Part shown: positions 3,601 through 29,572 of the stretch, in pieces
How positions within the stretch are numbered: the first letter of the stretch is position 1
Layout: each line of letters starts with the position of its first letter
Origin: a virus
Direction: 5' to 3' (one strand)
Length of the DNA: 29,572 nt
Virus record (IMG/VR): IMGVR_UViG_3300015366_000090
Span: 1 to 29,572 of that record
Program-made: the position numbers and the translations under genes
The notes under the pieces: model-generated
Seen by the model: the letters and a program-made list of their open reading frames with translations, nothing else
Databases searched by the model: none
Told to the model about the DNA's origin: nothing

Positions 3601-3993
3601 TAATACTTGTCGGCCGCCTAATGTGGCAAACCATAATACTCTTGTTGTGCCAAAGCCACCAGTTACTCGTGTCCAAATATAACTAGCAGGATTGTTTACA
3701 TTACTAGGAGTTTCATCTGTTGTGTTTAATACACCATACCAACCTTGGTTAATAGGACTAGTTGAAAAGTTTACTGTGCCATCACCACTATTGGCATAGC
3801 GGACGTTTATCCATTGATACAAGTAACCAATAAGTTGATTGTTTGTATTGTTGGTAATTTGGCCAGTAGTAGTATTGGCTACCAATACGTTAGCCGATAT
3901 ACCAGTTGCTTGTCCTAAGTTTGCTAATGCATAATTAAGACTACTAAGGATCTCACCTTGTGAGTCTCCAGCTTCTACTGCAAAGTTTGCCAT
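601..3993 (-). CDS. Large tail fibre/tip protein with C-terminal propeller-like repeats
   Basis: An 1130-residue protein starting MANFAVEAGD, whose ATG overlaps the stop of the upstream tail gene as TAATG. The N-terminal ~240 residues (Trp/Tyr-rich, WTRVTGG and similar) resemble the beta-rich modules of phage tail-tip and fibre proteins. A collagen-like GPQGSRGP stretch follows near residue 250. Residues ~390-560 carry hexapeptide-like repeats (IGANLTVAGLI, IGGNLVIGAN) that could form a beta-helical shaft. Residues ~790-1025 hold at least four copies of V-A-V-G-x-x-G-T-[IV]-[IVY] (for example VAVGDSGTVVVS and CAVGDNGTVYVS) plus a weaker one, typical of Ycf48/BNR-type beta-propeller blades. 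The ending is beta-rich. Likely a receptor-contacting fibre or tip; the assignment rests on composition, repeats and position. Confidence 0.72.
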   Translation of the reverse strand: MANFAVEAGDSQGEILSSLNYALANLGQATGISANVLVANTTTGQITNNTNNQLIGYLYQWINVRYANSGDGTVNFSTSPINQGWYGVLNTTDETPSNVNNPASYIWTRVTGGFGTTRVLWFATLGGRQVLFQPDNVPPSVNYNEVQDGVAINLDVITGATANQIINESIYFRANTAPLTPTGGKFNFTSLVLYPPTTPDVWSATVPVGDGQLVYLSQAIFSGNAGNASPSTVWSDPTVLASNFAGNTGPQGSRGPIPLGYVITDTDPTYWIDTQYSNAFSAPRANVIAPIGVSPYGQTYTPISGDTAQFFYPNLAYPGHQVTVVKSFSSNTSPLWQSVLANVVSGNVIYTGSITSSALNTNDIYAINISGGGGAVGDIYTHGYWLQANTGSAAFGGNVYIGDHLIVGSDAQIGANLSVTGLITTGALNDAVVSTRTLQDGTVTGVKIANGTITGNLIQANTIQGNSIVAGSITTTQLSADALTVGNITSQGATFGDINSAGYWLANTTGAAHFGGNTTIGNQLTVGANATIGGNLVIGANATIGANLTVAGLILGGSIVENVITTQNLTLESITQNSTVNGNPTVNLIQFINGNTQIPTSPGYLWPYNTRGIPLGLTGATIVAQTDGSSTGSRITINYSVYMNTYPDNPAYNLVELWKSGSSNYFPQTFLDGISLPPAGDFYNLGTYTGTALYGTGINGNISGTGTFSTVSSVSPGAINSAVSGAQWATGSGTPNRVAYYGQDYRTQMSNSSIIHTTIGGNYFSNPSMTAYGVAWLNYYYPISGGGFNPISPAVVVGAGGTILRSCGHSAVNPIATDVGTFETSPVFQDLYGIAANKSPARNWTPYPTTAPDTTTTFVAVGSAGTIIRNTRSYYTTGANVGAVVGGTTTWTLTGTGVTLQNLNAVACNSANPTSSNVAVAGTTFVAVGDSGTVVVSTNSGVTWSKIQLPTTNNLNAVAWTPAVGGFYPAGWWCAVGDNGTVYVSNSPTSLANWFSITTPASGLRNLYSVCTAGAPGSQKGFYATGQSFAMYTSAVNPSSGWTVSYSGSPDITSEYTRLQFFGSWADITNQTQPPPQQQVANGQVISASFNDFNYVAGDDITYYLILGSLQGNANTFTGGATLSVTEFKR

Positions 3994-5639: not shown

Positions 5640-5918
5640 TTAATCTTTAATCCATGCACAGGCAAATTCATCCCAATGACATGGTGCATCTGGTTTGCGT
5701 GGTATAAACGCATCTCTATCTGGGTCATAGGTATCACCAATGCCAGCAAAATTCTTTCTTAATGGTGTGCCACCTAATAGATGCACACCATGTTGTGTAT
5801 TATAACTGGTTTGTATCCATTCGGCAGGATCACCTACACGCCAAGCATCAATAAAATCTTGTTCAGCGACAATAACTTGTGTTACTGTGCCATCTATAAC
5901 TTGTGCAAAGTGGCTCAT
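5640..5918 (-). CDS. Small conserved phage tail-region protein
   Basis: A 92-residue protein starting MSHFAQVIDGTVTQVIVAEQ, with WIQTSYNT, PLRKNFAGIGDTYD and DAFIPRKP further on. This pattern is familiar from small proteins in the tail-fibre regions of aquatic and cyanobacterial phages: an N-terminal beta-strand pair followed by an aromatic, Pro-rich C-terminus with a W-x-x-x-x-x-C-x-W ending. No enzymatic motif is seen. The ATG overlaps the stop of the glycine-rich gene (ATGA), so it belongs to the same translational unit as the fibre proteins and is probably a virion or fibre-assembly component. Family recognition is from memory of the sequence style, not a search. Confidence 0.65.
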   Translation of the reverse strand: MSHFAQVIDGTVTQVIVAEQDFIDAWRVGDPAEWIQTSYNTQHGVHLLGGTPLRKNFAGIGDTYDPDRDAFIPRKPDAPCHWDEFACAWIKD

Positions 5919-6748
5919 GCTGTGTAAGTTCCTGATCCAGTATATGATAATATGGTATTGCTACCAGATGTTGTTATTGTAACTGTCCCCGAATATGTGC
6001 CAGTATAATTGGCAGTTGGAACACTTAATATAATAACACCTGAACCACCTGAAGTTCCTGTTGGAGTTCCACCACCGGCTCCGCCTCCAAGATTAACAGT
6101 TCCGTTTGTAGCTACAGGACTACCTGAACCAGCATAACCGCCATTACCGCCACCGCCTGATCCACCAATTCCAAATGTTACACCTATAAATGCGCCTGCT
6201 CCGCCGCCACCGCCGCCTGCATAATAAACAGCTGATCCAGTAATACTAGATTGAGATCCAATACCTCCATCGCCAGCAATAAATTTATTTGTAGTAGTAG
6301 CACCTGCGGCGCCAGCGCCGCCACCACCACCACCTGGATAATATATTGGTCCACCATCTGCATAGGTAGCGCCACCACCATCATTACCTTGACCACTTGT
6401 GCCTGTTCCTGCTGTTCCGCGGTCTACAGCACCACCACCTGAACCACCATTGCCACCATCATTACTATTAGTTCCACCACCACCTACAGCAGTTACAGTA
6501 GTTAAACCCGAGCCAGTAATTGTGCTGTTGGAACCATTAGCTCCAGAACCTGCAGATCCGCCTGCACCAACAGTTAATGTATATACCGTGCCTGGTGTTA
6601 AAGAAACGGTATTAGTAAGTAATCCACCTGCACCTGCACCTGAATCGGCATTGGCTGCACCACCCCCAGCTACTGCTAGATAACTGACGTTATATGGAGT
6701 AGCTGTAGGATTGGCGACATAGAGACCTAACTTTGCGGCTCCAAGCAT
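5915..6748 (-). CDS. Glycine-rich tail protein, adhesin-like
   Basis: A 277-residue protein. An N-terminal strand (YNVSYLAVAGGG) is followed by TPGTVYTLTVGAGGSAG and then about 150 residues of Gly/Ser/Ala runs (GGGGGGAGAAG, GGGGGGAGAFIG), ending in GTPTGTSGGSGVIILSVP and a short beta-rich tail. This is the layout of phage Gly-rich domain proteins. In T4-like phages similar Gly-rich loops (gp38 adhesins, polyglycine-II sandwich) make receptor contact at fibre tips. The gene follows the long fibre directly (TAATG overlap), as expected for a tip adhesin. The low-complexity GGN codon runs invite slippage and recombination. Adhesin role is inferred from composition and position. Confidence 0.65.
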   Translation of the reverse strand: MLGAAKLGLYVANPTATPYNVSYLAVAGGGAANADSGAGAGGLLTNTVSLTPGTVYTLTVGAGGSAGSGANGSNSTITGSGLTTVTAVGGGGTNSNDGGNGGSGGGAVDRGTAGTGTSGQGNDGGGATYADGGPIYYPGGGGGGAGAAGATTTNKFIAGDGGIGSQSSITGSAVYYAGGGGGGAGAFIGVTFGIGGSGGGGNGGYAGSGSPVATNGTVNLGGGAGGGTPTGTSGGSGVIILSVPTANYTGTYSGTVTITTSGSNTILSYTGSGTYTA

Positions 6749-9700
6749 TATGCATAACCTTTAACTAAACTGGCTAGATAGTTAGTTCCATCGTAATATA
6801 TGGTTATTGTATCAATTGCACCAACTGCGGTTGATAGTGTTTTGCTACCGCCAGCAAACTTTATGTCTGATGTCAATGTGTAGCTACCAGAACCACCTTG
6901 TGTAATAATTAACGTTACACTTTTGCCTGTGACAAAGTTACTCATGTTGGCAGTATTAATAGTAATGCTGCCAGTTAAGGTCATTGTTTGAACTGGACCT
7001 TGGTTGTTATTAACTGTAACTGTGCCTGACTGATTGCCTAAGGCTACTTGTTTTTCAGCATAAGCATTCAATACAACGTTACTTAAAGTATAACTTTGTG
7101 CGTTGACGTTACTATACCAAGTGCTTGGATCTTGTGTGTAAGCAACCGTTACTGTTGATACGCTACCATATTGTGTAACTTTAGCGTATGTAGTGCTGTT
7201 TGGAATAATGTTACCATAAATTGTGCTACCAACTGGCCAATTAATATTTTTAGTTCCGTAACTGTAAACTAAGAAATCAAACTGTCTAGCTGTCGCAGAA
7301 GTTGTAGCAACAACTGAGATATTACTATCTAAACTAACTTGTTGTAATGAAGCATAGTTAACGTTACCAAGGTAAAATACGTTGCCTGTTAAACTACCAG
7401 AAGTATTGGCAGTAAACTGGAAACCTGGGCTCATTGATCCGGTGTAGGCCACGTTAGAGAATGTGGCTGTTAATGCTGGACTAAAGCCTGCTTGAACAAT
7501 ATTACCGTTAGTAGTAATTGTAGTGGTTGTATCTTCGTTTAATAAAGCATACTTGTTGGTTGCGGTTGAACCCCATCCACTTACAGTATGTAAACCAACT
7601 GCATTGGTAATTGACAAGTTACCAGCAACAATAACGCAACCTGAGAACAAACGTGCCACACCAATATTACTTGCTGTGTAGCCTGTGCCTGTGGTAGCTG
7701 TTTGAACTAAACTGTATGTTCCAGTAGCAAAACCAATGTTGGCACTACCACCAGTTGGTGTTTGTCCAACAAAGTTAAATTGACCAACTGTGTGTCCAGC
7801 TGAACCAGTGCCTAAGATAGTTATACCCGATTGGGCACCAACTAAGGCAAATGAATTGCTAATATTACTGCTGAACCATTGCTTGCCGTTTAATTGGACA
7901 TCTAAGGCTGTCTGCCCGGCACGAACACGATCACTGTTGGTCATACTGTTGGCTGTGCTTGGCCAAACTTGTAAGTATTGATATGTGCCAACAGTATTTT
8001 TATTAACAGCATCGTATTTGCTTTGTAGCGATACGTTACTGCTTAATATCATATTTGTAGTTTGGTTACCTGTTGCTGGCTGTTGTAATATGCCACCTGT
8101 ATAAACAGGCACGTTGGTAATTGTTGATGTTGTTGCTTGGTTACTGGTGCTTGGAGCACTTAATGGGAAGGCATTGGCAAAGATACGACCATTGATGCCA
8201 TCATATAATACGTTGCCGGCTAGATTACCTGAGAATCCTGCGGCTGCGGCTGGTGTAATAGTTGTGCTGTAGTTAACACCGTTGGCCCAGAATATACCTG
8301 ATGTAGTAATAACATTGCCTACGTTGGCTGTGCCAAATACTTTAACACTCTTACCAATGCTACCACCACCAACTAATACAAACGATCCAGTTACTGGAGC
8401 AAGTGAAGCATCACTAACATCTGAAAGATTGGAACTGCTAATAACACCAGTAGCACCAACGCTGACACCGTTATTGCTAATGTATGCGGCTACTTCTGTA
8501 TTACCATATGTAGATTGTGTAGAATATGCGGCACCATTGGTCCAGAATATACCACCACCGGTAATAACATTACCAAATAACCAATTGTTAGCACCCGAAG
8601 TAACCACGTTACCATTTTGAAGTGTTACATTACCCGTTGCGGCTAGTAATGCTGTTTTAGATCCAGCTGGTCCAAATCCACCTTGAATTTGAATACCATC
8701 CATATTAGCGGCACCACTGTCTTTGACAACTAAAGCATAACCACTATAACCAGATAACGAACCACCACCGATATCTATTTGTCCACTAACATTAGTTGTG
8801 GCAGCATTTACATTAAAACTTGGTCCACTGTAGGCTGCATAACCTGCGCCTGCTTGAACTGTTACGTCTGAACTACCATATACGTTACCAGTAGAAATAC
8901 CTACAGTATTGATAATCTTATCACTTAATACTGTGCCACCGTAAACTGGCAAATAAGCGGCAACGTTGGTATTGCTATATGTGTTAGTAGCAAACTGTAT
9001 GTTGGCGTAAGTTTCAAACGCACCAACGTTGGCATTCAGTGTATTAATTGCTGTTGCTTGCGTTGCCGCATTGCTAAACAATGTTGTAATATTAGTTGTA
9101 GCTGTGCCTAGGTTGGCATCAATTACTTGTAATGCAGATTTAGTAGCAAAAGTTAAATTACCGTATGTTTCAAATGCACCTACGTTGGCATTCAATGTTT
9201 GAATGTTTGTGCTGTTGGTTGAAATTGCTGAATTAGCGTAAGTTTGATATGCACCTAAATTAGCATTAATTGTATTAATTGCTGTAGCTTGCGTTGCTGC
9301 ATTGCTAAACAATGTTGTAATATTAGTTGTTGCTGTGCCTAGGTTGGCATCAAGTGTTTGTAATGCTGACTTGGTAGCAAATGTTAAATTACCATATGTT
9401 TCAAACGCACCCACATTGGCATTCAATGTATCAATTTGTGTTTGTTGACTTGCGGCATTGGCTGTTGTGCTGAATGTTAAATTAGCATAAGTTTCAAACG
9501 CACCAACGTTGGCTTGTAATGCAGTAATGGTTGGATCAATCTTAATCCAAGCCGCTGCCTGTGTGTTACCATACGTGCTTGTGCTAAATGTGGCATTAGC
9601 GTAAGTTTCAAACGCACCTAAGTTGGCATTGATTGTATTAATTGCTGTGGCTTGTGTTGCCGCATTACTAAACAATGTATTAATATCAGCGGCCTGACTA

Positions 9701-11016
9701 CCAGCATTGCTTTGCAATGCGGTAATGTTAGTTGTTGCTGTGCCTAGGTTAGCATCAAGTGTTTGAATGCGAGCATTAGCCCAAATTTCATAAGCACCCA
9801 CGTTGGCTTGCAATGCAGTAATAGTTGGATCAATCTTAATCCAGGCAGCGGCCTGAGTGTTACCATAACTTGAAGTGCCAAATGTAGCATTGGCATAAGT
9901 TTCAAATGCACCTAAATTGGCATTTAATGTTTGAATATTAGTTGCGTTGGTCGTGATTGCTGTAGCTTGTGTGGCCGCGTTACTAAACAATGTAGTAATG
10001 TTAGTTGTGGCGGTGCCTAAGTTTGCATCAACGACTTGTAATGCCGACTTGGTAGCAAATGTTAAGTTACCATATGTTTCAAACGCACCTAAGTTAGCGT
10101 TAATTGTTTGTAAGTTGCCCCATATAGCTTTGATATTGCTATCGGTTGGCAAGTATGCCGCAACGTTGGCATTACCAAAACTGCTGGTGCCGAATGTGGC
10201 ATTGGCATAAGTTTCAAATGCACCTAAATTGGCATTTAACGTTTGTAATGCTGTTTTTGTAGCAAACGTAACGTTGGCGTATGTTTGACTGCCGCCAATG
10301 TTGGCCTGAATACCAGTGATAGTAGGATCATATGGCAAGTAAACTGCCACGTTGGCATTGCCATAATTGCTACCTGTGGGTAAGTTAGTTAGTAAACTAC
10401 CATCACCTAAGAAATATGGTGCTGTAATATTGCCGCCGGCGTTGATGCTAGCATCATTACCATAAGTTATGGTCTTTAATGTTCCTGTGCTGTTGCTTTG
10501 AAATACACCACCACCTGCATCTAGGTAGAACCAGGATCCTGTGCCAATATCATATTCGCTAGCAGGAACAGCCTGACCATTGGTCCACTGTAGTTGTGCA
10601 TAGTCTTTACCTTGGACTGCTAATCCAGATTCATTGAATACGGTAAATGCATTTATTGTGCCGCCATAATGTGGTAAGAAACTTGCCACGTTGGCATTAC
10701 CATATCCGCCAGTTGCAGAAGTGACACTAATCGTAGATACACTACTAACACGGCCATCGCCTCCAACTGTTACAACTGGAAAATAATCAACGTTACCATA
10801 TGTTCCAGATATAACACCGCTGGGCAATACGCTGGCCAATACTTTTGTATTTGCGCCAGTTAAACTAAATCCAACTGTTCCTGTGTTGCTTAATAAAGTT
10901 AATAGCTGTTGAGCATTATTTAAAACGCTAGCAGAGCCGCCACCTATATAAAGTCCTGTGGTATTTGTTACTGATGTAGTAACATTGGCGTTACCGTATC
11001 CATATAAACCTGGCAT
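6748..11016 (-). CDS. Long tail fibre with tandem coiled-coil-like repeats
   Basis: A 1422-residue protein starting MPGLYGYGNANV; ribosome site AAGGA lies 8 nt before ATG. Three kinds of repeat build the shaft. The unit [NQ]-A-N-[LV]-G-A-[FY]-E-T-Y-[AG]-N occurs about ten times at residues ~240-680, spaced by GTATTNITTLF-type and LFSNAATQATAI heptad-like segments. The unit [YF]-G-N-[AT]-x-[VA]-A-[AS]-[YWF]-[LI] recurs along the N-terminal two thirds. The C-terminal ~70 residues (GKSVTLIITQGG, FAGGSKTLS, IDTITIYYDGTNY) match a widespread phage fibre C-terminal module. The helical repeats suggest a trimeric rod. Together with the coupled Gly-rich gene this is the main host-binding appendage. 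Confidence 0.85.
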   Translation of the reverse strand: MPGLYGYGNANVTTSVTNTTGLYIGGGSASVLNNAQQLLTLLSNTGTVGFSLTGANTKVLASVLPSGVISGTYGNVDYFPVVTVGGDGRVSSVSTISVTSATGGYGNANVASFLPHYGGTINAFTVFNESGLAVQGKDYAQLQWTNGQAVPASEYDIGTGSWFYLDAGGGVFQSNSTGTLKTITYGNDASINAGGNITAPYFLGDGSLLTNLPTGSNYGNANVAVYLPYDPTITGIQANIGGSQTYANVTFATKTALQTLNANLGAFETYANATFGTSSFGNANVAAYLPTDSNIKAIWGNLQTINANLGAFETYGNLTFATKSALQVVDANLGTATTNITTLFSNAATQATAITTNATNIQTLNANLGAFETYANATFGTSSYGNTQAAAWIKIDPTITALQANVGAYEIWANARIQTLDANLGTATTNITALQSNAGSQAADINTLFSNAATQATAINTINANLGAFETYANATFSTSTYGNTQAAAWIKIDPTITALQANVGAFETYANLTFSTTANAASQQTQIDTLNANVGAFETYGNLTFATKSALQTLDANLGTATTNITTLFSNAATQATAINTINANLGAYQTYANSAISTNSTNIQTLNANVGAFETYGNLTFATKSALQVIDANLGTATTNITTLFSNAATQATAINTLNANVGAFETYANIQFATNTYSNTNVAAYLPVYGGTVLSDKIINTVGISTGNVYGSSDVTVQAGAGYAAYSGPSFNVNAATTNVSGQIDIGGGSLSGYSGYALVVKDSGAANMDGIQIQGGFGPAGSKTALLAATGNVTLQNGNVVTSGANNWLFGNVITGGGIFWTNGAAYSTQSTYGNTEVAAYISNNGVSVGATGVISSSNLSDVSDASLAPVTGSFVLVGGGSIGKSVKVFGTANVGNVITTSGIFWANGVNYSTTITPAAAAGFSGNLAGNVLYDGINGRIFANAFPLSAPSTSNQATTSTITNVPVYTGGILQQPATGNQTTNMILSSNVSLQSKYDAVNKNTVGTYQYLQVWPSTANSMTNSDRVRAGQTALDVQLNGKQWFSSNISNSFALVGAQSGITILGTGSAGHTVGQFNFVGQTPTGGSANIGFATGTYSLVQTATTGTGYTASNIGVARLFSGCVIVAGNLSITNAVGLHTVSGWGSTATNKYALLNEDTTTTITTNGNIVQAGFSPALTATFSNVAYTGSMSPGFQFTANTSGSLTGNVFYLGNVNYASLQQVSLDSNISVVATTSATARQFDFLVYSYGTKNINWPVGSTIYGNIIPNSTTYAKVTQYGSVSTVTVAYTQDPSTWYSNVNAQSYTLSNVVLNAYAEKQVALGNQSGTVTVNNNQGPVQTMTLTGSITINTANMSNFVTGKSVTLIITQGGSGSYTLTSDIKFAGGSKTLSTAVGAIDTITIYYDGTNYLASLVKGYA
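8985..10290 (-). repeat. Degenerate tandem repeats inside the long fibre gene
   Basis: Within the fibre gene, the plus strand repeats segments such as gtttcaaacgcacc and acgttggcattcaatgt about ten times at irregular 60-200-bp intervals, matching the protein repeat NANxGAFETYAN. Copies differ mostly at third codon positions, so the protein repeat is kept while the DNA drifts. Unequal crossing-over here could lengthen or shorten the fibre. Confidence 0.75.
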
Positions 11017-12434: not shown

Positions 12435-13751
12435 TTAAAATGCCTGATTGTCCCATGCACTTAGACGTTGGACGTATACGCTTGGACGTAATACGCCACC
12501 ACCGCTTACTGTTCCAACAACACCGGCTGTTACACCAGCATAGTTACCTGAAGCACTGATGTCATGCAATACAGCTACACCAGCTGGGTTACGAACAATC
12601 AATGTTCCTTCCAAAATAAACTGATCTAGCGATGCGTCAGCATTACTAAACACTTCATTGTTAGGACCTAGATCACGTAAGCTACCCCACTGTAGAACTT
12701 CTTCGTTCAAGAAATAGATCTGGTTGCTTGCGCCTACCTGGTCCATAATCCAAGAATCGAATATCTCATAAGTGTAGTTGAAGTCGCCTTCGTATGTAGC
12801 GATTGTGTCGCCACGCTCAGAATTCACACGGTTAATACCACGGCTTGTAGGCATTGTGTCCGACAAGTGTGTGCGTAGTGAAGTTGGGCAAACGATAGTG
12901 CGGATCTTAGCATTGAAACGCTTTTCAGCTGTTGTTACCAACTGCTTGTATAGACTAGGAGCAAACTGCTGTAATGTTGCAGAATACTCATAGAAGCTAG
13001 AACCTAGGTATTCACCGTTGTTGGTGAATGTTGTGCTACCTGCGGCAGCGGCTTGAGCACCAATATAGAATGCTGAAGTTGCGCCAACTGCATTTGCGCC
13101 AAAACCTAGTGTATCACTGTTTTCAAAGTTGAAAAGTGTAGTGATTTGGTTGCTAGCAATAGCCAAGTTACCTGTGCCATCACCAACGCTGAACGAATGT
13201 GTGCCAGCGAAAGAGTTCAATGAACCCATACGACGACCAATTTGTGTTGCGCCTGTGATTTGTGTGTTACCTGAAGTTGCTGTGCCGCTGTAAGCTGATC
13301 CAGACTGGCCACTATACTTTGTGCCAACTTGGTCATTACGAACGATCTGAGCTTCAACGTCGAACATTAGTTCGATTAGCTGTTTTACTTCCTGGTAAGC
13401 CTGAGGATCACCACCTGATTGCTCAACTGCACGAGCTGTTCCAGTAGCACCAACAACAGTTTGGAAAATCTGTGTGTAGTTGCCCAAGTTAGCACGTTGG
13501 TTGCTTTCAGGAGTAGCTGAACTAACAGCCATACCTTCTGTTGCGGCTTGAATTGCAGGCGCACGATAAACGTCGTTTGTCCACAATGGTAAAGTAGAAA
13601 CTACTTTACGCTTTTTAGCCATACACATGTTTAAAACAGGGGTATCGTCTTTAACACGGTTTGATACATCTAAGTCTAAATCTTTAACAACGATATCGGT
13701 TTGGTATGCTCCAGTGCCGTTACCGATTGCCGAGGTTGTAATAGTTGCCAT
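12435..13751 (-). CDS. Major capsid protein (SU10/DUF5309-like, HK97 fold)
   Basis: A 438-residue protein, MATITTSAIGNGTGAYQTDI. The stretch NLGNYTQIFQTVVGATGTARAVEQSGG followed by an acidic helix ending in FDVEAQIVRNDQVG is the hallmark I know from SU10-type major capsid proteins (DUF5309), which have the HK97 fold. The C-terminal part (FDSWIMDQVGASNQIYFLN, LILVRNP-like EGTLIVRNPAGVAVLHDISA) also fits. It has the strongest ribosome site in the window (AAAAAAGGAGAATTTTA before ATG), as expected for the most abundant virion protein. The scaffold gene lies 22 nt upstream. Two hairpins follow its stop codon. Confidence in role is high, in subfamily moderate. Confidence 0.9.
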   Translation of the reverse strand: MATITTSAIGNGTGAYQTDIVVKDLDLDVSNRVKDDTPVLNMCMAKKRKVVSTLPLWTNDVYRAPAIQAATEGMAVSSATPESNQRANLGNYTQIFQTVVGATGTARAVEQSGGDPQAYQEVKQLIELMFDVEAQIVRNDQVGTKYSGQSGSAYSGTATSGNTQITGATQIGRRMGSLNSFAGTHSFSVGDGTGNLAIASNQITTLFNFENSDTLGFGANAVGATSAFYIGAQAAAAGSTTFTNNGEYLGSSFYEYSATLQQFAPSLYKQLVTTAEKRFNAKIRTIVCPTSLRTHLSDTMPTSRGINRVNSERGDTIATYEGDFNYTYEIFDSWIMDQVGASNQIYFLNEEVLQWGSLRDLGPNNEVFSNADASLDQFILEGTLIVRNPAGVAVLHDISASGNYAGVTAGVVGTVSGGGVLRPSVYVQRLSAWDNQAF

Positions 13752-15340: not shown

Positions 15341-15349
15341 TTATTTATG
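15341..15349 (-). promoter_or_regulatory. TATAAATA-like element overlapping the portal stop
   Basis: The minus strand reads CATAAATAA; the portal stop codon TAA is part of it. It ends 18 nt before the next start codon, with a GGAAC ribosome site between. One of five similarly placed copies; promoter function inferred. Confidence 0.35.
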
Positions 15350-17633
15350 TTCCGTAAGCCCTGGCCTTATCCTCTGCCAACAAAGAATAGCCTTCTAATT
15401 GGCTACTTGCTGTGTTACCAGAAACTTCAGCTTGGATTTGGTCAGCTTTGACTTTGTCTAAGTTAGCACTTGCTAACTTTTTCTGATCATCTGGGCTAGG
15501 TTGCTTGTTCTTAGCGGATTCCATACCTTGAGCAATCATTTCTTTTACTTCATCTTCAGTTGGCAAGTAAGTATCGCAATCTTTAACGCCCAATACGTAT
15601 AACATATCAGCATAAGGCTTTTTCAACTTCTTATATGCGGCAGGAGTCAAGCTGGCTGACTGAACACCAGCGGCAACTTCCTGCGCTAGACCTTGTTGAG
15701 CCTTCTTGATAATCTGTAAACGTTGCAAACTGTTCTCTTCTGACTTCATACCAAGTGCAAGCTCAATGTGAATGGTCTTACGATCATTAAAATTCATGTC
15801 ATCAAAGCGTTGATAATCCATAAATTCGGCTTTGCCTTCAGGGTGAAACTCTTGTGCCAGTTTTTTAACACCATAATCATCGCCATAAGCTACCAATGTG
15901 CGCCAAATTAGCCAAATAGCATCCTTTAAACCTTCGGCACAGTTCTTGACTGTGTTGTCTTGAATAATTTGGTTTGGACTTAGGGCCAAATTTAACTTGG
16001 CACCACTATTACCTGGATCCATAACCTCTGGATTGAACACATCTTGAGGAGTAGTCATACCAACCATGCTCATTGTATCCTGCTGTAAGCGGTTCAACGA
16101 CTGCTCAATAAAGCTAATATTGCCGTTTGGAGCTGGTAATGGATAGATATCCTTGGCTGGATCAAACTTGCTGTCTAGAATAAAGATAGCGGCTTCGCCA
16201 TCTTGTATCATTTCAAAGTCTAGTTTGTCTGGTTTGACACCAATACGTGGTGTAGCTGTTAGTAATCCCAACTGCAATTCAGCACGATAGCCTGATGTTG
16301 CATATTCCTGCATGGGCACTACTGATTCAGCAATGCTCATACCATAGAAGTTTTGTGGTAATGGCTTGGGAACCATGTTGGCCACAGGGATAAACTCTAC
16401 TTCTTTAGCACTAATAACATATTGTCCTGAGTAAATGAGTTCGATCAGTTCTAGTTCGCCGTCATTATCAATGTCGTAGCGGTTCCAAACAGTCAGCACA
16501 GTAACTTGACGTGCTTCTGGTTCCTGGGCACTATAACCTTGTGCAGGTAGTCCATTGATAGGGACCGAATCTCTTGCGTGTATTGCTAGGTTGTTCAGCA
16601 ACGAGCCAGCTTGGTAGCTACCTACGTTACTGTATTCTGCATAGATCTTGAATTGTTCTAGATCAATGTCTGGATAAAGCTCTGTGGCTTCTTGTATGCT
16701 CATGGGCTTGTAAAAGCCGCAGAATGGTTGTTCTTCGATGCTGATAACAGTTGGGTCACACATCCAATAGTGTTGTGCAATAGGACGGAACTTGACATTA
16801 ACTGTATAGCCAGTTAGTTTATACTTGGCTTCGTAAATGGTATTGCGGCTGATGCTGTCATTGAGTGCATCTTCGCCTTCTTGTAACTGCACATTGTTTT
16901 CTGGACTGTCTTCTTCTGTTAGGTCATGTTCAAAATCACCTGCTGCCATTGCTTGGCTTTGATCCATGCGAGTTTGAAAACCATTTTCATCAGTTTGCTC
17001 TCCAGCATTGGCCAAGAACTCTTGTGTTTCTCGAGTTACCTGTTCTAGGTCTACACGAATCTTACGACGACTTTTACGCAATGCTGTTAAACCAGCGTCA
17101 GCAGCCTGTTGTTCAAATGCTGCCAACTGATCCATTGTGCCGTGTGTGGTAACATAGCGTGTAACGCTTTCACGCATTGGCGCTATCATCATTTCGCCAT
17201 TCTTATGTAAACAAGCATCCATGACCCAATGTTGTAAGATCATGTGTGGATCATTATTTTGGTTGATCAGCTTATGCACCATTTCAGTGGCCTGTCTTGC
17301 GGCCACTTCATCCTCTTCGTTATCGGGCACAAACTCAAAATTGATTTCACCGTTCTGTGCCATACCCTTAACAATAACGCTGGTGGCATAATCAACACAA
17401 GGTTTAACCACAGGGTGGATATAATCTATGCCGTTAACTGGCGCAGTTGATTGACTTACAGCTAAGTTTAAATAGTGATAGTCACTAGCACGGTTAATAT
17501 TATTCTTTGTGGCTAGCAAACGCAAGTTGGCCGCACACTTCTGATCTAGCAAACTCTTCATTTTGACAAAACGAGCCATTTGCCCAGTGTGTCCATTAAG
17601 ATTGCTGATTACAACGTTTTTTAAATCTAACAT
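15345..17633 (-). CDS. Portal protein (P22-type)
   Basis: A 762-residue protein, close to the ~725-residue P22 portal. The N-terminus (MARFVKMKSLLDQKCAANLR), the wing-like region (WVMDACLHKNGEMMIAPMRE), the core (QYVISAKEVEFIPVANMVPKP, NFYGMSIAESVVPMQEY) and the motif GNSGAKLNLALSPNQ followed by a long helical stem fit P22-like portals that form the dodecameric DNA entry ring. The C-terminal ~90 residues are Lys/Glu/Gln-rich helices, like the shorter C-terminal barrels of this group. The gene follows the large terminase and precedes scaffold and capsid, the canonical order. A TATAAATA element lies 24 nt upstream of its start. Confidence 0.88.
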   Translation of the reverse strand: MLDLKNVVISNLNGHTGQMARFVKMKSLLDQKCAANLRLLATKNNINRASDYHYLNLAVSQSTAPVNGIDYIHPVVKPCVDYATSVIVKGMAQNGEINFEFVPDNEEDEVAARQATEMVHKLINQNNDPHMILQHWVMDACLHKNGEMMIAPMRESVTRYVTTHGTMDQLAAFEQQAADAGLTALRKSRRKIRVDLEQVTRETQEFLANAGEQTDENGFQTRMDQSQAMAAGDFEHDLTEEDSPENNVQLQEGEDALNDSISRNTIYEAKYKLTGYTVNVKFRPIAQHYWMCDPTVISIEEQPFCGFYKPMSIQEATELYPDIDLEQFKIYAEYSNVGSYQAGSLLNNLAIHARDSVPINGLPAQGYSAQEPEARQVTVLTVWNRYDIDNDGELELIELIYSGQYVISAKEVEFIPVANMVPKPLPQNFYGMSIAESVVPMQEYATSGYRAELQLGLLTATPRIGVKPDKLDFEMIQDGEAAIFILDSKFDPAKDIYPLPAPNGNISFIEQSLNRLQQDTMSMVGMTTPQDVFNPEVMDPGNSGAKLNLALSPNQIIQDNTVKNCAEGLKDAIWLIWRTLVAYGDDYGVKKLAQEFHPEGKAEFMDYQRFDDMNFNDRKTIHIELALGMKSEENSLQRLQIIKKAQQGLAQEVAAGVQSASLTPAAYKKLKKPYADMLYVLGVKDCDTYLPTEDEVKEMIAQGMESAKNKQPSPDDQKKLASANLDKVKADQIQAEVSGNTASSQLEGYSLLAEDKARAYGT

Positions 17634-17667: not shown

Positions 17668-19296
17668 CTATTCATTACCACTGTATACACGCTTCCATTC
17701 GGGCATAGTAGTGGTGATTTGCTTTTGTGCTATGCTGGCTTTTAATTGATGTTTAGCAGCCCGAAAGCGTTCTCGAGGACTGCGTCCATCCCAGGTTTCA
17801 GCTAGGCCATTTAAGCACCCTAGTAGTGCATATCGAGCTGAGTCAATGCAGTCATCCGGGTCACTAAAACGTCCCCGATCATCTGCATAATAGTTTTGTG
17901 CTTCACGCAAAAACTCTACACAGTTTTCATTAATGTGTAGTGTGCCCAACTCTAGCATTTGGCGCATGGTGTTGATACCAAAGCTCTTGTGGTTAGTTCT
18001 ACGTCCTTGATCATCTGGCGGATTCATAATAGCTTCTGGATGCACGTTTAGTTCATAACTTTCAAATAACTGTCTGATGCTTAGGCTATTCATAGTATAT
18101 CGTCCAGGTGTTCCAGCATCTGCAGGTAACACAATGGGAGTGCCAAATACTTCAGGTCGCATTAAATGATTTATGTAATTAACTGGGTTTGCTTCTTCGG
18201 TGCCCTTGACCACAATTTGTTTATGTAGCCATGCTTCCTGTTCATTAGGATCCCAGAACATTAGGCTAACCACAGTTTTGTCGTTGACCAAGCCCAAGTC
18301 AAGTGCAATGATACGATGCAATCCACTTGAGCTGGACAGGTCGTAATCACCATTCTTATAAGTAGGCCATTCACGCAATTGAAACACAGCACCTTTGCCC
18401 ATGACAGGAACACCATTGCGGCGAGCATCACGTTCGTGTGGCAAGTAGTCACGTTCCAATTGACGGCGTGTGCTCATTAACAAGAAAGGTTCGCCCCAGG
18501 GATCGTATTCGGGCACATCATCCCATGATACTCTGATGTGTTCATATCCCTCTTCATGGTGCCAAAACTTTGACACCAATCCATTGAGGCCCTTTAGTGG
18601 TGTAAATGAACATAGAACTTGTCCCTGGGTAGTAGCAGTTCTAGTTACAATTTCACTAAAGAAGTCATCTGGTGGTTGTTCATCGAATACGGCAAGGTTC
18701 AATTTAAAACCCTGCATTTGGCGAACTTCTTGTGTGTAGTTGGCAAAGACCAAATAGCTGTTGGTGCCTGACGTGTGACGTATCTCTACGCCCAAGCAAT
18801 TGGCACCATCATTACGCATAGTTTCAAACCTAATGCATTCACGTGGAATAGCGCCAGTGCCTATGTTGTCTGTGATCTTGACATCTTGTGTGCCCAACAA
18901 TTCATTTTGTAAAACCATGGATACCTGTTGCCATCCTTCACCTGCCACCATAGCAGTTATAGGTTTGGCATAACGTTTACCCTCCCACCAGGCAGGATAC
19001 AAACCAGTTAAATGGTAAGCTGTTTCAAAACATGTTGATACAGTTTTACCAATACGGTTAGCGGCTAGGATGCCACGCCGTTCACTGTTACCTGTAGCAA
19101 AGAATCGCTTTTGATGTTCAAATGGTTTAAAGTAACGCAGTTGGTTATAACGCATGTCCTCTTGCACAGCTATAACAAATTCTTGGAACTTGGTCAATGC
19201 GTCAAAAGGCATGCCATTTAAATTGTTGGGATCAAGGTTATGCTGTTCGCACACATAGCGAATGGCACGTCGCATCAACAAATTGGGATCTAACAT
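17668..19296 (-). CDS. terL: Terminase large subunit (packaging ATPase-nuclease)
   Basis: A 542-residue protein of normal TerL length. The ATPase domain has a Walker A-like AANRIGKT (residues 78-85), Walker B LAVFDEQ with D205-E206 and a coupling motif CSFTPLKG (229-236). The RNase H-like nuclease domain has IIALDLG (D333), LPADAG (D393) and DDCIDSARYAL (D485), three acidic residues suited to bind two metals. It cuts concatemeric DNA and drives it into the prohead through the portal. Its ATG follows directly on the stop of the upstream gene (TAAATG). The catalytic residues expected for both activities are present. Role is secure; the subgroup (headful or site-specific) cannot be told. Confidence 0.95.
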   Translation of the reverse strand: MLDPNLLMRRAIRYVCEQHNLDPNNLNGMPFDALTKFQEFVIAVQEDMRYNQLRYFKPFEHQKRFFATGNSERRGILAANRIGKTVSTCFETAYHLTGLYPAWWEGKRYAKPITAMVAGEGWQQVSMVLQNELLGTQDVKITDNIGTGAIPRECIRFETMRNDGANCLGVEIRHTSGTNSYLVFANYTQEVRQMQGFKLNLAVFDEQPPDDFFSEIVTRTATTQGQVLCSFTPLKGLNGLVSKFWHHEEGYEHIRVSWDDVPEYDPWGEPFLLMSTRRQLERDYLPHERDARRNGVPVMGKGAVFQLREWPTYKNGDYDLSSSSGLHRIIALDLGLVNDKTVVSLMFWDPNEQEAWLHKQIVVKGTEEANPVNYINHLMRPEVFGTPIVLPADAGTPGRYTMNSLSIRQLFESYELNVHPEAIMNPPDDQGRRTNHKSFGINTMRQMLELGTLHINENCVEFLREAQNYYADDRGRFSDPDDCIDSARYALLGCLNGLAETWDGRSPRERFRAAKHQLKASIAQKQITTTMPEWKRVYSGNE

Positions 19297-25290: not shown

Positions 25291-25623
25291 TTAGACTAAT
25301 TGTTCTTGACGCACTTGTAGTATGTCCACAACTTCGGCTTCAGTTAAGGGTTCTACTAGACTAGGATAACTGTCTGCTGATATTATGGTCAAACGATCCT
25401 GTGTTGTTTGTGCTGTTCGGCGTAATCCCGTATAAATCCCTAATGGGTTTTCTTTTGTGACTATTTGATCCCAATGACTGCGGGTATAGTTTCTATAAGT
25501 ACTGTCAACTATGGTCATCAATACTTCAAGTGATTCTATGTCTACCCAAGTAATTTCATATATATCTGCATAATTCTTAATACCCATTTTTCTTGTGATA
25601 TCTGATAGTATGTATGTCTTCAT
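25291..25623 (-). CDS. Hypothetical protein
   Basis: A 110-residue acidic protein, MKTYILSDITRKMGIKNYAD, with beta-rich first half (IYEITWVDIESLEVLMTIVD) and a helical C-terminus (LTEAEVVDILQVRQEQLV). AGGAG lies 6 nt before ATG. No recognised domain. It is separated from the phosphoribosyltransferase gene by 65 AT-rich bases containing an AATAAATA element. Confidence 0.6.
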   Translation of the reverse strand: MKTYILSDITRKMGIKNYADIYEITWVDIESLEVLMTIVDSTYRNYTRSHWDQIVTKENPLGIYTGLRRTAQTTQDRLTIISADSYPSLVEPLTEAEVVDILQVRQEQLV

Positions 25624-25688: not shown

Positions 25689-26339
25689 CTAGTAATATGC
25701 CCCAAAGTCTGGGTCACGCTTGAACTTGCGAACATAAGCTGTCCATGACATGGCAAAGTCTTCGCAGGTAAACAAGCTGATTAGTTCTCTTGAATGCAGG
25801 TAATTTTCTGTGTGTGTGCCTTGTGTTTTATTCATTAAGGTTGCATACTCATGAGCTACTGGCAAGTTGAATGATTCTAGGGTTTTTACTGCTGAACGTA
25901 GTGTGCTTTGGCTACCAGCTACATCATCTACCAACAAGATTGGTCGGCCGGTAATGACGCCTTCGGTAAAGTTTAACAATCCATAAGCCTTGCGTGACTT
26001 TTTAAGTGACATCATTGGTGTTCCTAACAAGCTGGCCATTGCCAATCCTAATGGGACTCCGGCATCTTCACAAGCACCAATCTGCACATCCTGGTTGGGC
26101 AATCTAGCTACCAATAGCTCTGCGGCTGTGAATACAAATTTGGGATCAAACATACATCTACGCAAATAGATTTGCCAAGTGTAAGTTCGATTAGGGGCTT
26201 TGCCAGGAATACCTGGTGCGCCGGGTGCCACGCGATACACAGCCTTGTGTTCTATTTCATCTCTAAGATACTGCATCTTGGCATCAATCACTGCTTGATT
26301 CATTTCCAGTTGTAATGCTTCTAGTCGTTCTGTGTTCAT
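25689..26339 (-). CDS. Phosphoribosyltransferase, orotate PRTase-like
   Basis: A 216-residue type I phosphoribosyltransferase, the size of PyrE. The PRPP-binding motif ILLVDDVAGSQST (residues 134-146) has the two consecutive Asp and the Ser/Thr loop of this fold. EDAGVPLGLAMASLLGTP (91-108) and SLKKSRKAYG (111-120) correspond to the central strand-helix and the basic flexible loop of orotate PRTases, and WQIYLRRCMFDP (55-66) to the N-terminal hood. It probably transfers a base to PRPP (orotate to OMP), supplying pyrimidine nucleotides during phage replication; another base is possible. The leader carries CATAAATA and the ribosome cassette AAAGGAATTGAAATG. Confidence 0.82.
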   Translation of the reverse strand: MNTERLEALQLEMNQAVIDAKMQYLRDEIEHKAVYRVAPGAPGIPGKAPNRTYTWQIYLRRCMFDPKFVFTAAELLVARLPNQDVQIGACEDAGVPLGLAMASLLGTPMMSLKKSRKAYGLLNFTEGVITGRPILLVDDVAGSQSTLRSAVKTLESFNLPVAHEYATLMNKTQGTHTENYLHSRELISLFTCEDFAMSWTAYVRKFKRDPDFGAYY

Positions 26340-26376: not shown

Positions 26377-26607
26377 TTAATCATTGATTAGAACTAGATA
26401 GTCTGTTTGGCTTAACCAAGAAATATGACATTGGCAAACTTGACAATATATTTCGCCTGCATGTAATCCCTTTCCAGGTCTTATGTCTACGGCATGATTG
26501 CCGTGATCTTTGGGACCTTTAACAGGTTCGGCATCTTTTATACGCTGTGCTTGGCCCCATGCACGTTTTTTAGCTTGCCATTGGCGTTGTGTTAACTTAG
26601 CGGACAT
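26377..26607 (-). CDS. Small zinc-ribbon-like protein
   Basis: A 76-residue protein; ATG at 26605-26607 (MSAKLTQRQW) is chosen because CAGGA lies 8 nt upstream. It overlaps the end of the polymerase-like gene by 11 bases. The basic N-terminal helix is followed by HAVDIRP and EIYCQVCQCHISWLSQTDY, with C55, C58, C60 and H61 close together. H-A-x-x-I-x-x ... Y-C-x-x-C-x-x-H-I-x-W-L-S is a pattern I know from small phage proteins of unknown role. The C-x2-C plus upstream His may bind zinc. Overlap with the polymerase gene suggests a linked role in replication or transcription. Confidence 0.62.
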   Translation of the reverse strand: MSAKLTQRQWQAKKRAWGQAQRIKDAEPVKGPKDHGNHAVDIRPGKGLHAGEIYCQVCQCHISWLSQTDYLVLIND

Positions 26608-28144
26608 TGTAAAATCCTGGTAGTTCATAATGATATTCTGTATAATCAGGTTGATTTTCTTTTTCTATTCTAGCACGTAATTCAGCAATAGAATCATATC
26701 TATTGCAATCCTGGACCTGGGCCATAATATCAGACTGATAACTACATGCGTCCAATTCCTCTTGATAGACTCGATTTTTGTGTTCCTGTTCCTCTAAATT
26801 GTCTTGTTCAAAGCGTTGATTAAATTGTTGATCTGTGCCAATGGGCCAAATGTCTTCGTGTTCTATGCGTATATATTCATATTCTTCTCTTAGAATAATT
26901 TGGCAATCAATGACTGCACTGGTAGGCAATTTTTGTCGATAATAAACACAATCATGCACAGTCATTAAGGGGGTGAGTCCTGTCATTGACTCAATTAATT
27001 GAATAAACTTTTTAGTCAAGTAGGCTTCTGTATTTTGATAGATCCAAGCGAGTTTTTGATTAACTGTCTTACGACGTCCATTGGCATTTTGATATTGATA
27101 TCGTAGGCCTAAATTCCATTCAAAGTCTTGATCTGGCAAGTATGCATCGATAGTGGCATTAATTGTTTTAAGATCTTCTGTGATAAACTTGAACTCAGTT
27201 TGGTTAATCAATCGTTCATATGCATCGGCCGTGTAAACCTGACGTCGTATGGCATTAAATGGATTGTTAATAGGGCGAGCACCAAAGCCTAAACTGGTAA
27301 ACACACTTTTGACTGCATCTTCACTGATACCTACTTCTTTTGCAATGCGTGTGCGTATATTCTTTCTATAACGAATGTAGTCTTCTACTTGTGCTATCTT
27401 GATAGTGGGATCTATGGTCTTGGCAATACTGGCCATGACAGCAAATGAATGTGCTTGGAAATCATATTTGTGGCAAACGCCCAGGGCCGCATGACGAACT
27501 TCCCGGTTCATTCTTTGTAAACTGTTATAATGTCCATATTCACGACCTGTATCTGCCGATTCCCAATATTCAAATAAACAAGTTTTACCATCATGTATTT
27601 GATGTTCTAGATATAATTCCCGTGCTCGTAATAGATTATTAGCCAAGGCATCATAATATTTGCCAGGACCTGTTATTCGTGTTTGTTGTTGTGTGTGTTC
27701 AATAAAACTGGCTAAACTTGCTGTATCTATCTCAATGATCTTGTTGGTTCTTTGAGCTATTTCTTTTCGCTCTCGATCGGTTAATGCCTGCGTTGGCATT
27801 TCTAATAATTCAAACATAATCTGTTCCTTATATATGGGATTTAATTTAACTCTAGATAGTTTACCTATGTTACCCCTAAAGGTAATATCAATCAATCTTG
27901 TTTTTGGGCTTTTTTGTAAAAAGGAAAATAGTCGTTCTCGCGTATTCGTAATGCCACAATCATTATAAACGAATTTACTATTAAAAGATAGTTCTTCGTT
28001 TTCGTTGCCAGGACGAAGTATTGCTTGTTTGATTTCGGGTAAGACAACACTAACATATTTGTTAGCATACCTATCAGCAAGATAGGGTTTGATATCAGGA
28101 TAGATTTTTTTAATCTCATCACTGATTATATTTGATAAATTCAT
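26597..28144 (-). CDS. Putative miniature family-A-type polymerase (DNA or RNA)
   Basis: A 515-residue protein with the family-A palm/fingers motifs in order: TGR (199-201), LQ (209-210), R-x-x-R-x-x-A around R214-R217, motif A YDFQAHSFAVMA with D228, a motif B/O-helix VKSVFTSLGFG with K279 and F287 at K+8, QNTEAYLTK (370-378, compare QGTAADIIK of Pol I), and motif C TVHDCV with H397-D398. The first ~190 residues resemble no exonuclease I know. The steric-gate Glu of DNA polymerases (motif A D+5) is Ser233, more like RNA polymerases; the O-helix Arg at K-4 is Glu275. So it may be a replicative polymerase, primase or single-subunit RNA polymerase. An internal ATG at 27817 has its own AAGGA. 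Three direct repeats lie upstream. Confidence 0.6.
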   Translation of the reverse strand: MNLSNIISDEIKKIYPDIKPYLADRYANKYVSVVLPEIKQAILRPGNENEELSFNSKFVYNDCGITNTRERLFSFLQKSPKTRLIDITFRGNIGKLSRVKLNPIYKEQIMFELLEMPTQALTDRERKEIAQRTNKIIEIDTASLASFIEHTQQQTRITGPGKYYDALANNLLRARELYLEHQIHDGKTCLFEYWESADTGREYGHYNSLQRMNREVRHAALGVCHKYDFQAHSFAVMASIAKTIDPTIKIAQVEDYIRYRKNIRTRIAKEVGISEDAVKSVFTSLGFGARPINNPFNAIRRQVYTADAYERLINQTEFKFITEDLKTINATIDAYLPDQDFEWNLGLRYQYQNANGRRKTVNQKLAWIYQNTEAYLTKKFIQLIESMTGLTPLMTVHDCVYYRQKLPTSAVIDCQIILREEYEYIRIEHEDIWPIGTDQQFNQRFEQDNLEEQEHKNRVYQEELDACSYQSDIMAQVQDCNRYDSIAELRARIEKENQPDYTEYHYELPGFYNVR

Positions 28145-28654: not shown

Positions 28655-28942
28655 TCAGGACCCAATTGACCCAGTTACACTACTACCAAAACGTTGTGCT
28701 TCTGCTTGTTCCACTTGCTCACGATATTCTATAGCTTGGTTAGCCAATTGAATATATTCGGGAGTTAACTGACCCGCCACAATAAAACCACGTAGGATCA
28801 TGGCTACCATACTGTGTATTTCTTGTTCTGATTCTCCAGCTTGTTCTAGCTGTAACACAGCATCTTCCAACATGTGTAGGACGCTGTGATGTTTTTGTTC
28901 TTCAATTAATTGCTTACGCATCTGTGATAATTTAGTGCTCAT
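28655..28942 (-). CDS. Hypothetical helical protein
   Basis: A 95-residue, almost wholly helical protein, MSTKLSQMRKQLIEEQKHHS, with the acidic middle (LQLEQAGESEQEIHSMVAM), a hydrophobic stretch (AMILRGFIVAGQLTPEY) and a Glu/Gln-rich end. No known domain is recognised. GGAG stands 6 nt before ATG and directly behind a terminator U-tract, so the gene appears to be read only when the terminator fails or by a nearby promoter. A control function by attenuation is possible. Confidence 0.6.
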   Translation of the reverse strand: MSTKLSQMRKQLIEEQKHHSVLHMLEDAVLQLEQAGESEQEIHSMVAMILRGFIVAGQLTPEYIQLANQAIEYREQVEQAEAQRFGSSVTGSIGS

Positions 28943-29090: not shown

Positions 29091-29572
29091 TTATTTAGCC
29101 TTGGGTGTTATGTGCCAACGATAACCGCGCCTAAAACTCCAGCGTTTACGTAGGGCTTGTGGTCTAGTAATTGTATAACGAATCATAATATCTTCTATGT
29201 TGGCTGTGCGAACAAAGTCAATGTCTGCTTCTGTATACCTATATACACGATTCTCTTGTTTATGATTGTAAGCATAGCCTTTGGTGCCAAATGGTCTACT
29301 GCTGACAAACAAATCATCTCGGCGCATTTCTACTAATTTGTCCTGCTGTGTGCCTTCTAACAAATGATCTGGATTGATACAAAGTTTATTATGGCAAGTA
29401 TGATTAATGTTGCGTTTGGTAGGCAAGCGATTGTGAGTCATCATCCAAGCTAGCCTATGTGCAGTGATCATGCCACCAATGTTGCCTGTGCTGGTTCTGC
29501 GTCCATCTGCATAGGTAAAGCCTACAAAGCCATAACCTACATTACTGGTAACTCCAGTCCAATTGACACAAC
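29091..29572 (-). CDS. HNH endonuclease, N-terminus beyond the window
   Basis: The frame is open to the right edge, so the gene is truncated by the window; 160 codons are visible. A typical HNH_3-type layout is seen: WTGVTSNVGYGFVGF, AHRLAWMMTHNRLP, NHTCHNKLCINPDHLLEGT with the HNH catalytic and zinc-like residues, then QQDKLVEMRRDD. The C-terminal part (ITRPQALRKRWSFRRGYRWH) may be a DNA-binding helix-turn-helix-like domain. Such free-standing homing endonucleases nick or cut phage DNA and spread within phage genomes. No intron boundaries are visible around it. The first ATG in view (29471) lies inside the domain, so it is not the start. Confidence 0.88.
   Translation of the reverse strand, partial: CVNWTGVTSNVGYGFVGFTYADGRRTSTGNIGGMITAHRLAWMMTHNRLPTKRNINHTCHNKLCINPDHLLEGTQQDKLVEMRRDDLFVSSRPFGTKGYAYNHKQENRVYRYTEADIDFVRTANIEDIMIRYTITRPQALRKRWSFRRGYRWHITPKAK

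Follow-up and report, generated by a model that had tools for sequence, protein, structure and literature searches.

The polymerase gene and its phage

The window analysed here is the whole of IMG/VR record IMGVR_UViG_3300015366_000090, a linear stretch of 29,572 bases. Genes for a large terminase, a portal and an SU10-like major capsid protein identify it as DNA of a tailed phage (Table 1). Its minus strand carries an ORF of 515 codons that begins with an ATG, about 7 bases after an AGGA element, and the coordinates assigned to this ORF by an earlier note, made from the DNA letters alone, are exact. Orthologues are encoded in two other viral contigs, L002 and L003. Searched as a single sequence against Pfam, PHROGs and the PDB sequences, the protein is not placed in any family, and hits to PDDEXK_11 (E 0.0057) and an OLD nuclease (E 0.0035) were set aside as chance matches. 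The protein has no match to Pfam DNA_pol_A above the cut-off, which is a matter of search sensitivity, since such a match does not define the fold. The Pfam and PHROGs searches detected no exonuclease domain, in agreement with the earlier note.

Table 1. Features of the window. Residue numbers refer to the window polymerase.
Feature	Position	Strand	Observations
SU10-like major capsid protein	12435-13751
Portal	15345-17633
Large terminase	17668-19296
110-aa protein, candidate polymerase partner	25291-25623	minus	L002 homologue 122 aa, 55% identical, directly downstream of polymerase
216-aa ORF, phosphoribosyltransferase-type motif (ILLVDDVAGSQST)	25689-26339	minus	From sequence; just downstream of polymerase
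83-aa ORF	26377-26628	minus	Overlaps polymerase gene end by 32 bases; no family match
Polymerase gene (P0001), 515 aa	26597-28144	minus (28144 to 26597)	Orthologues 65% (L002) and 49% (L003) identical
Motif C, H397-D398	26951-26956	minus	Pol I H881-D882; hairpin in model; followed by Cys instead of Glu883
Q370-xx-E373	27026-27037	minus	Q370 aligned with Pol I Gln849
Motif B / O helix, E275-xxx-K279-xxx-T283-xxx-F287-G288	27281-27322	minus	Pol I R754, K758, F762, Y766, G767; model helix 275-286
R264	27353-27355	minus	Invariant in plasmid/phage subset; aligned with Pol I His734, triphosphate side
Motif A, D228-FQAH-S233	27446-27463	minus	D228 = catalytic Asp705; S233 at Glu710 steric gate position
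LQ, residues 209-210	27515-27520	minus	Aligned with Pol I LQN
TGR, residues 199-201	27542-27550	minus	Aligned with Pol I T-G-R668 (HHalign register); G and R invariant in six-protein alignment
N-terminal region, residues 1-180	27605-28144	minus	No exonuclease or detectable known domain; model mainly helical, low confidence
95-aa conserved small protein, upstream of polymerase	28655-28942	minus	46% and 41% identical in L003 and L002 phages
HNH endonuclease	29091-29471	minus	phrog_1872, 5.9e-14; also beside polymerase in L002 and L003

The model of the 110-aa neighbour has a pLDDT of 47.5, too low to resolve its fold. Within the scanned gene set, a Pfam Pribosyltran match (5.8e-5) is recorded for the set rather than for a stated member. 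Elsewhere in the window, a 1130-aa protein (601-3993), probably of a tail fibre or spike, has a hexapeptide-repeat match. A search for tRNAs found none in the window, L002 or L003.

A sister contig, G003 (36,104 bases), is co-linear with the window and permuted: its last gene corresponds to window gene 6748-11016 and its first to window gene 5915-6748. The two ends of G003 (L023:1-810 and the end of L024) meet within a Gly-rich gene with GGT repeats, which the window has intact at 5915-6748. Thus, G003 is a near-complete genome, and its break is probably one of assembly. G003 has a lytic transglycosylase gene and, next to the polymerase, an HNH nuclease gene. It also codes for Cpn10 and a ferritin-like/Dps protein; in the sister phage, the Cpn10, which is GroES-like, lies at L003:8007-8249 and the ferritin-like/Dps protein, which is DNA-binding, at 7226-7675.

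Among the matches listed for the scanned genes of the window and sister genome, which cover part of the G003 ORFs and leave many small unknown ORFs that may hide unrecognised replication genes, no other polymerase, primase, helicase or ligase was recognised. D5 helicase, integrase, resolvase and transposase genes were likewise not recognised in the window or sister genome, and no COG3378 or DUF927 helicase was found downstream of the polymerase. A phrog_16 match was rejected as a phage helicase, being a methyltransferase in L002. A DNA methyltransferase gene (L002:12811-14076) is inserted before the terminase of L002; none was seen there in the window or L003.

The nearest sequenced terminase relative, ctfne034 (53% over 85%), carries Erf, a putative SSB and RusA. 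No such polymerase is annotated in ctfne034 or was found there, including in two unannotated gaps that were searched. Therefore, the polymerase gene is a lineage-specific trait, and phages of the ctfne034 type can live without it.

Homologues, motifs and fold

Scans of viral contigs with the alignments, the core, P0005 and P0007 found no members beyond L002 and L003. Distant relatives are carried by Nitratidesulfovibrio phage SRB7757 (E 4e-7) and by Polaromonas plasmids pW9NP1 and pH8NP1 (E 5e-7 and 2e-3). The pW9NP1 relative adjoins RepA, and the Polaromonas plasmids of relatives carry RepA and a recombinase. Passages found in the plasmid paper describe both as RepA_C replicons and do not mention the gene as a polymerase (PMC6015842). 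Through pH8NP1, relatives were reached in Microcystis phage Ma-LMM01 and its kin and in Vibrio phage GR11A. Another relative is carried by a contig of a Rhodoferax MAG, and the scan of genome contigs gave two plasmid-type loci. One further distant protein, L016, was found among 399 genomes of that MAG's order. This 588-aa relative (L016:610-2376, minus strand) has the sequence YGxxFG and a Gln five residues after the motif-A Asp (D+5), and it is nearer to Pol I than the other relatives. It might be an intermediate.

Several of these loci have features of their own. The 11.9-kb Rhodoferax contig L007 (MTEI01000038.1) is probably a circular plasmid, because parts of the polymerase gene lie at both of its ends. 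In a beta-proteobacterial MAG, the relative at L008:252-1307 appears broken, with the frame lost after motif A. The Ma-LMM01 relative, gp030, adjoins two transposases (gp031 and gp032; L017:7445-10828). A gene for ribonuclease HI comes after that of the 617-aa GR11A relative (L018:8951-11720), which is suggestive of RNA-primer handling.

When a profile built from 11 homologues is aligned to E. coli Pol I, 209 columns are covered and every motif falls in register (HHalign score 58.7), whereas 98 of 100 column shuffles score no higher than 18.3; the two that scored about 135 are end-gap artefacts. In this register TGR falls on TGR668, LQ on LQN, D228 on D705, K279 on K758, F287 on Y766 and HD on H881-D882, and R264 lies on His734. 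Every residue that the earlier note had quoted for its Pol I motif series is present, and in the order it gave. The same profile matches an alignment of E. coli Pol I with T7, SP6 and phiKMV DNA polymerases (Prob 88, E 3.5e-6, 209 columns), as opposed to Prob 0.1 and E 0.6 for RNA polymerases (RNAPs) of the T7 type.

The trio of window, L002 and L003 proteins matches an independent set of plasmid and other-phage proteins (Prob 99, E 5e-18, 354 columns). The trio alone gives no significant profile match to Pol I, and the link to Pol I therefore runs through intermediates. Profile comparisons connect the trio to the plasmid proteins (E 5.6e-14), and these to Ma-LMM01 (1.5e-8), GR11A (2.4e-9) and L016 (3.3e-8). 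L016 matches Pfam DNA_pol_A with E 0.0019, under the family's own cut-off.

In a six-protein alignment that includes three distant members with 17-22% identity to the window protein, the invariant columns are polymerase motifs and little else (G200, R201, L209, Q210, R217, D228, R264, K279, G288, A289, Q370, E373, H397 and D398). Across 12 proteins, D228, K279, G288, Q370 and D398 are invariant. The conserved hairpin Arg and two Asp of family A are present (R201, D228 and D398), and the order of the two catalytic Asp residues (motifs A and C), the hairpin Arg and the O-helix Lys matches that of the family-A superfamily.

In E. coli Pol I numbering, the window protein has Ser for E710, Glu for R754, Thr for F762, Phe for Y766 and Cys for E883. 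The Ser at D+5 and the Glu aligned with the O-helix Arg, both pointed out in the earlier note, are retained in L002 and L003, which keep D228, S233, R264, E275, K279, T283, F287, Q370, H397 and D398. The R754 position is occupied by Ile, Pro or Val in relatives, and this Arg is likewise missing from most of the wider family, Ma-LMM01 among them.

The proposal of a steric gate like that of RNAPs was not supported. The RNAP residue at D+5 is Gly rather than Ser, and F287 is without the Tyr hydroxyl that serves as the ribose sensor of T7 RNAP. In addition, the relatives differ at D+5: those of the plasmids and of Ma-LMM01 carry His there, SRB7757 carries Val, and GR11A, like L016, carries Gln. 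Because of this variation, the sugar gate at D+5 appears from these sequences to be lost or variable in the wider family rather than RNAP-like. Given established work on Klenow E710 mutants and T7 RNAP Y639F, an enzyme that has neither the Glu gate nor the Tyr hydroxyl is expected to discriminate poorly between the sugars of dNTPs and rNTPs.

An AF2 model built from five aligned sequences is of moderate confidence (mean pLDDT 62, pTM 0.51), with pLDDT below 50 at residues 34-109 of the N-terminal region. The C-terminal half of the Rhodoferax relative was left out of the modelling alignment, as it misaligned when added. In the model, strand 223-228 ends at D228, and a hairpin (394-396, 399-402) carries the HD at its turn. 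In a PDB fold search with this model, the top places go to DNA polymerase I structures (E 3e-7); 38 family-A DNA polymerase chains precede any RNAP, and mitochondrial RNAP begins to appear at 2e-3. The matches have low whole-chain TM-scores (0.3-0.4), which is to be expected when a divergent protein is modelled only in part. In a viral library, the best fold match is an uncharacterised 509-aa Caudovirales protein (E 5e-17), and further down is the replication protein of Zamilon virophage (5e-7), whose length and annotation suggest that it is a TV-Pol.

By its PDB matches the model has, at moderate confidence, the palm and fingers of family A, and the gene almost certainly encodes a family-A polymerase fold. 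The profile and structure-model checks that the earlier note had called for, together with the motifs conserved in distant homologues, bear out its description of a miniature family-A-like polymerase. Its term 'RNA-polymerase-like', taken as kinship, is not supported by the same profile and fold rankings, and kinship with T7-type RNAPs beyond the shared core was rejected on the profiles.

Relation to described polymerases

The polymerase class to which this protein is compared is already known (TV-Pol 2008, CCPol 2020, PolA-SSB 2023, divPolA2 2024). The TV-Pol family was described by Iyer, Abhiman and Aravind in 2008 as predicted primase-polymerases, with a minimal family-A core of 400-600 aa that lacks an exonuclease and occurs in phages and mobile elements (PMC2579912). 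The window protein resembles them in size, core and carrier, and it has the hairpin Arg and the two Asp that are absolutely conserved among them. The members named in that study include one from Ma-LMM01 (PMC2579912), and gp030 of this phage, a homologue of the plasmid relatives of the window protein, is presumed to be that member because gp030 adjoins transposases. A direct profile match between the window trio and Ma-LMM01 is not significant, and the link is made via the plasmid proteins. With regard to the bihelical thumb or all-helical N-terminal domain of TV-Pols, the N-terminus of the window protein is modelled as helical at low pLDDT.

Two differences from TV-Pols stand out. The fingers motif RxxxK reads ExxxK (E275-xxx-K279) in the window protein, the plasmid and Ma-LMM01 relatives likewise lacking this Arg, and no D5 helicase or recombinase adjoins the window polymerase. 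Because RxxxK and the helicase linkage are missing, we have not filed the protein as a TV-Pol. Membership in a loose sense, through Ma-LMM01 gp030, is likely.

CCPol, which was the only TV-Pol tested biochemically to its authors' knowledge at publication, primes de novo when bound to its partner MP, which it requires (Bebel 2020, PMC7581432). CCPol-MP and PolA-SSB resemble the window arrangement in that a family-A polymerase is carried on mobile elements with a small protein encoded adjacent to it (PMC7581432, PMC10061031). Primases of these types have so far been found in Bacillota (Rice 2023, PMC10061031). Compared here by its published description rather than by direct sequence comparison, CCPol has a reduced exonuclease, whereas none is detectable in the window protein. 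Unlike the window protein with its Ser and Thr, CCPol keeps E710 and F762, and it uses dNTPs. The window also differs from PolA-SSB loci in that it lacks a COG3378 helicase, and its OB-fold partner is a candidate only.

The divPolA2 proteins are phage family-A polymerases of about 420-540 aa that have an unrelated N-terminal domain and no exonuclease, and in barbaviruses they adjoin a regular PolB (Yutin et al. 2024, PMC11348598). Their similarity to the profile of the window family is weak (Prob 51, E 1.6e-4). In contrast to the window protein, they keep RxxxK, in some members Glu at D+5, and they lack the YG/FG after the O helix. In our tree divPolA2 forms a separate group from the window family (99/98), with weak backbone support (62/15) and with long branches that meet. 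Identity with divPolA2 was rejected on the basis of the weak profile similarity and the separate clade.

Compared with DNA polymerase I (Klenow), TGR, LQ and motifs A, B and C are in register, but the exonuclease is missing and the five substitutions listed above set the window protein apart. With T7-type RNAPs it shares the palm core and the absence of the Glu gate; however, Gly542 and Tyr639 of those enzymes correspond to Ser233 and Phe287, and 515 aa is far shorter than their 816-883. The window polymerase fits a divergent variant of the minimal mobile-element family-A polymerases. This agrees with the suggestion in the earlier note of an unusual divergent branch and of a phage enzyme of the replicase or primase kind.

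Proposed role in phage replication

The reading that we favour, to which we give about an even chance, is that the protein is an active minimal family-A polymerase without an exonuclease, of the TV-Pol-like mobile-element kind, most likely serving phage genome replication as a primase or primase-polymerase. It would make or extend the first stretch of DNA, either copying the first nucleotides on opened phage DNA or extending a nick or transcript, and bulk elongation would be handed to the host replisome. D228 and D398 would hold the metals and K279 would grip the incoming triphosphate, whereas R264 might stand in for the lost O-helix Arg. The open gate (S233, T283 and F287) may result in weak discrimination between deoxy- and ribonucleotides.

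Priming is favoured because the polymerase is the only recognisable replication enzyme among the scanned genes of the near-complete sister genome, and because its homologues reside in elements that need to start replication, beside RepA in pW9NP1 or beside transposases. The predicted activity of TV-Pols (PMC2579912) and the priming by CCPol with MP (PMC7581432) argue in the same direction. Against this reading count the absence of a helicase neighbour, unlike TV-Pol and PolA-SSB loci, the missing RxxxK arginine, the moderate confidence of the AF2 model and the lack of the gene in ctfne034. The putative OB-fold partner, the 110-aa protein, is only a candidate given its poorly resolved model, and CCPol, which needs its partner and keeps E710 and F762, is no close functional proxy.

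Alternatively, the protein might need a primer and work as a DNA polymerase in repair or gap filling rather than as a primase, in which case the lost gate would mean relaxed fidelity. We regard this as possible but somewhat unlikely. Its closest profile and fold matches are indeed DNA polymerases, and large phages such as Ma-LMM01 carry a relative in addition to what is presumably a regular Pol I. A role as a repair enzyme has also been suggested for divPolA2 (PMC11348598). However, only the HNH endonuclease was recognised nearby, with no ligase or other repair gene, and the phage is of a type without another recognisable replication enzyme. Moreover, losing the equivalents of E710, F762 and R754 would be odd for a dNTP-specific extender.

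A further-reaching form of the priming reading is doubtful. It holds that the protein represents a new family-A branch in which an N-helix arginine, R264, has taken over from that of the O helix and the gate against ribose has been taken apart, and that a phage of 36-38 kb has this sugar-permissive primase-polymerase as its sole replication enzyme.

It is improbable that the protein is a single-subunit RNAP transcribing phage genes. The gate Glu is lost as in RNAPs, the HD of motif C is followed by a small residue (Cys or Gly), nearer to the HDS of RNAPs than to the HDE of DNA polymerases, and the same proposal has been made for divPolA2 (PMC11348598). Nevertheless, there is no profile similarity to T7, SP6 or phiKMV RNAPs, RNAPs rank below all 38 DNA polymerase chains in the fold search, no promoter-binding N-terminal domain was recognised in this much shorter protein, and Ser at D+5 with Phe at the Y639 position is not the RNAP pair. 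Least probable of all, and very much so, is a paralogue with little or no catalytic activity that is retained as a DNA-binding scaffold. This would suit the loss of the O-helix Arg here and in relatives, and similar loci do contain RRM-only members that are probably inactive (Rice 2023, PMC10061031). It would not suit the preservation down to about 20% identity of both Asp residues, K279, the TGR Arg, Q370 and H397, for which a dead enzyme has no need.

If the favoured primase or primase-polymerase reading is true, a core that lacks the Glu gate, Phe762 and the O-helix Arg, in a phage without another recognisable replication enzyme, would show how little of Pol I suffices to start DNA synthesis. 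The window protein would also provide a test of whether sugar choice and priming are separable in the superfamily, and the phage and plasmid polymerases would be tied into one testable set.
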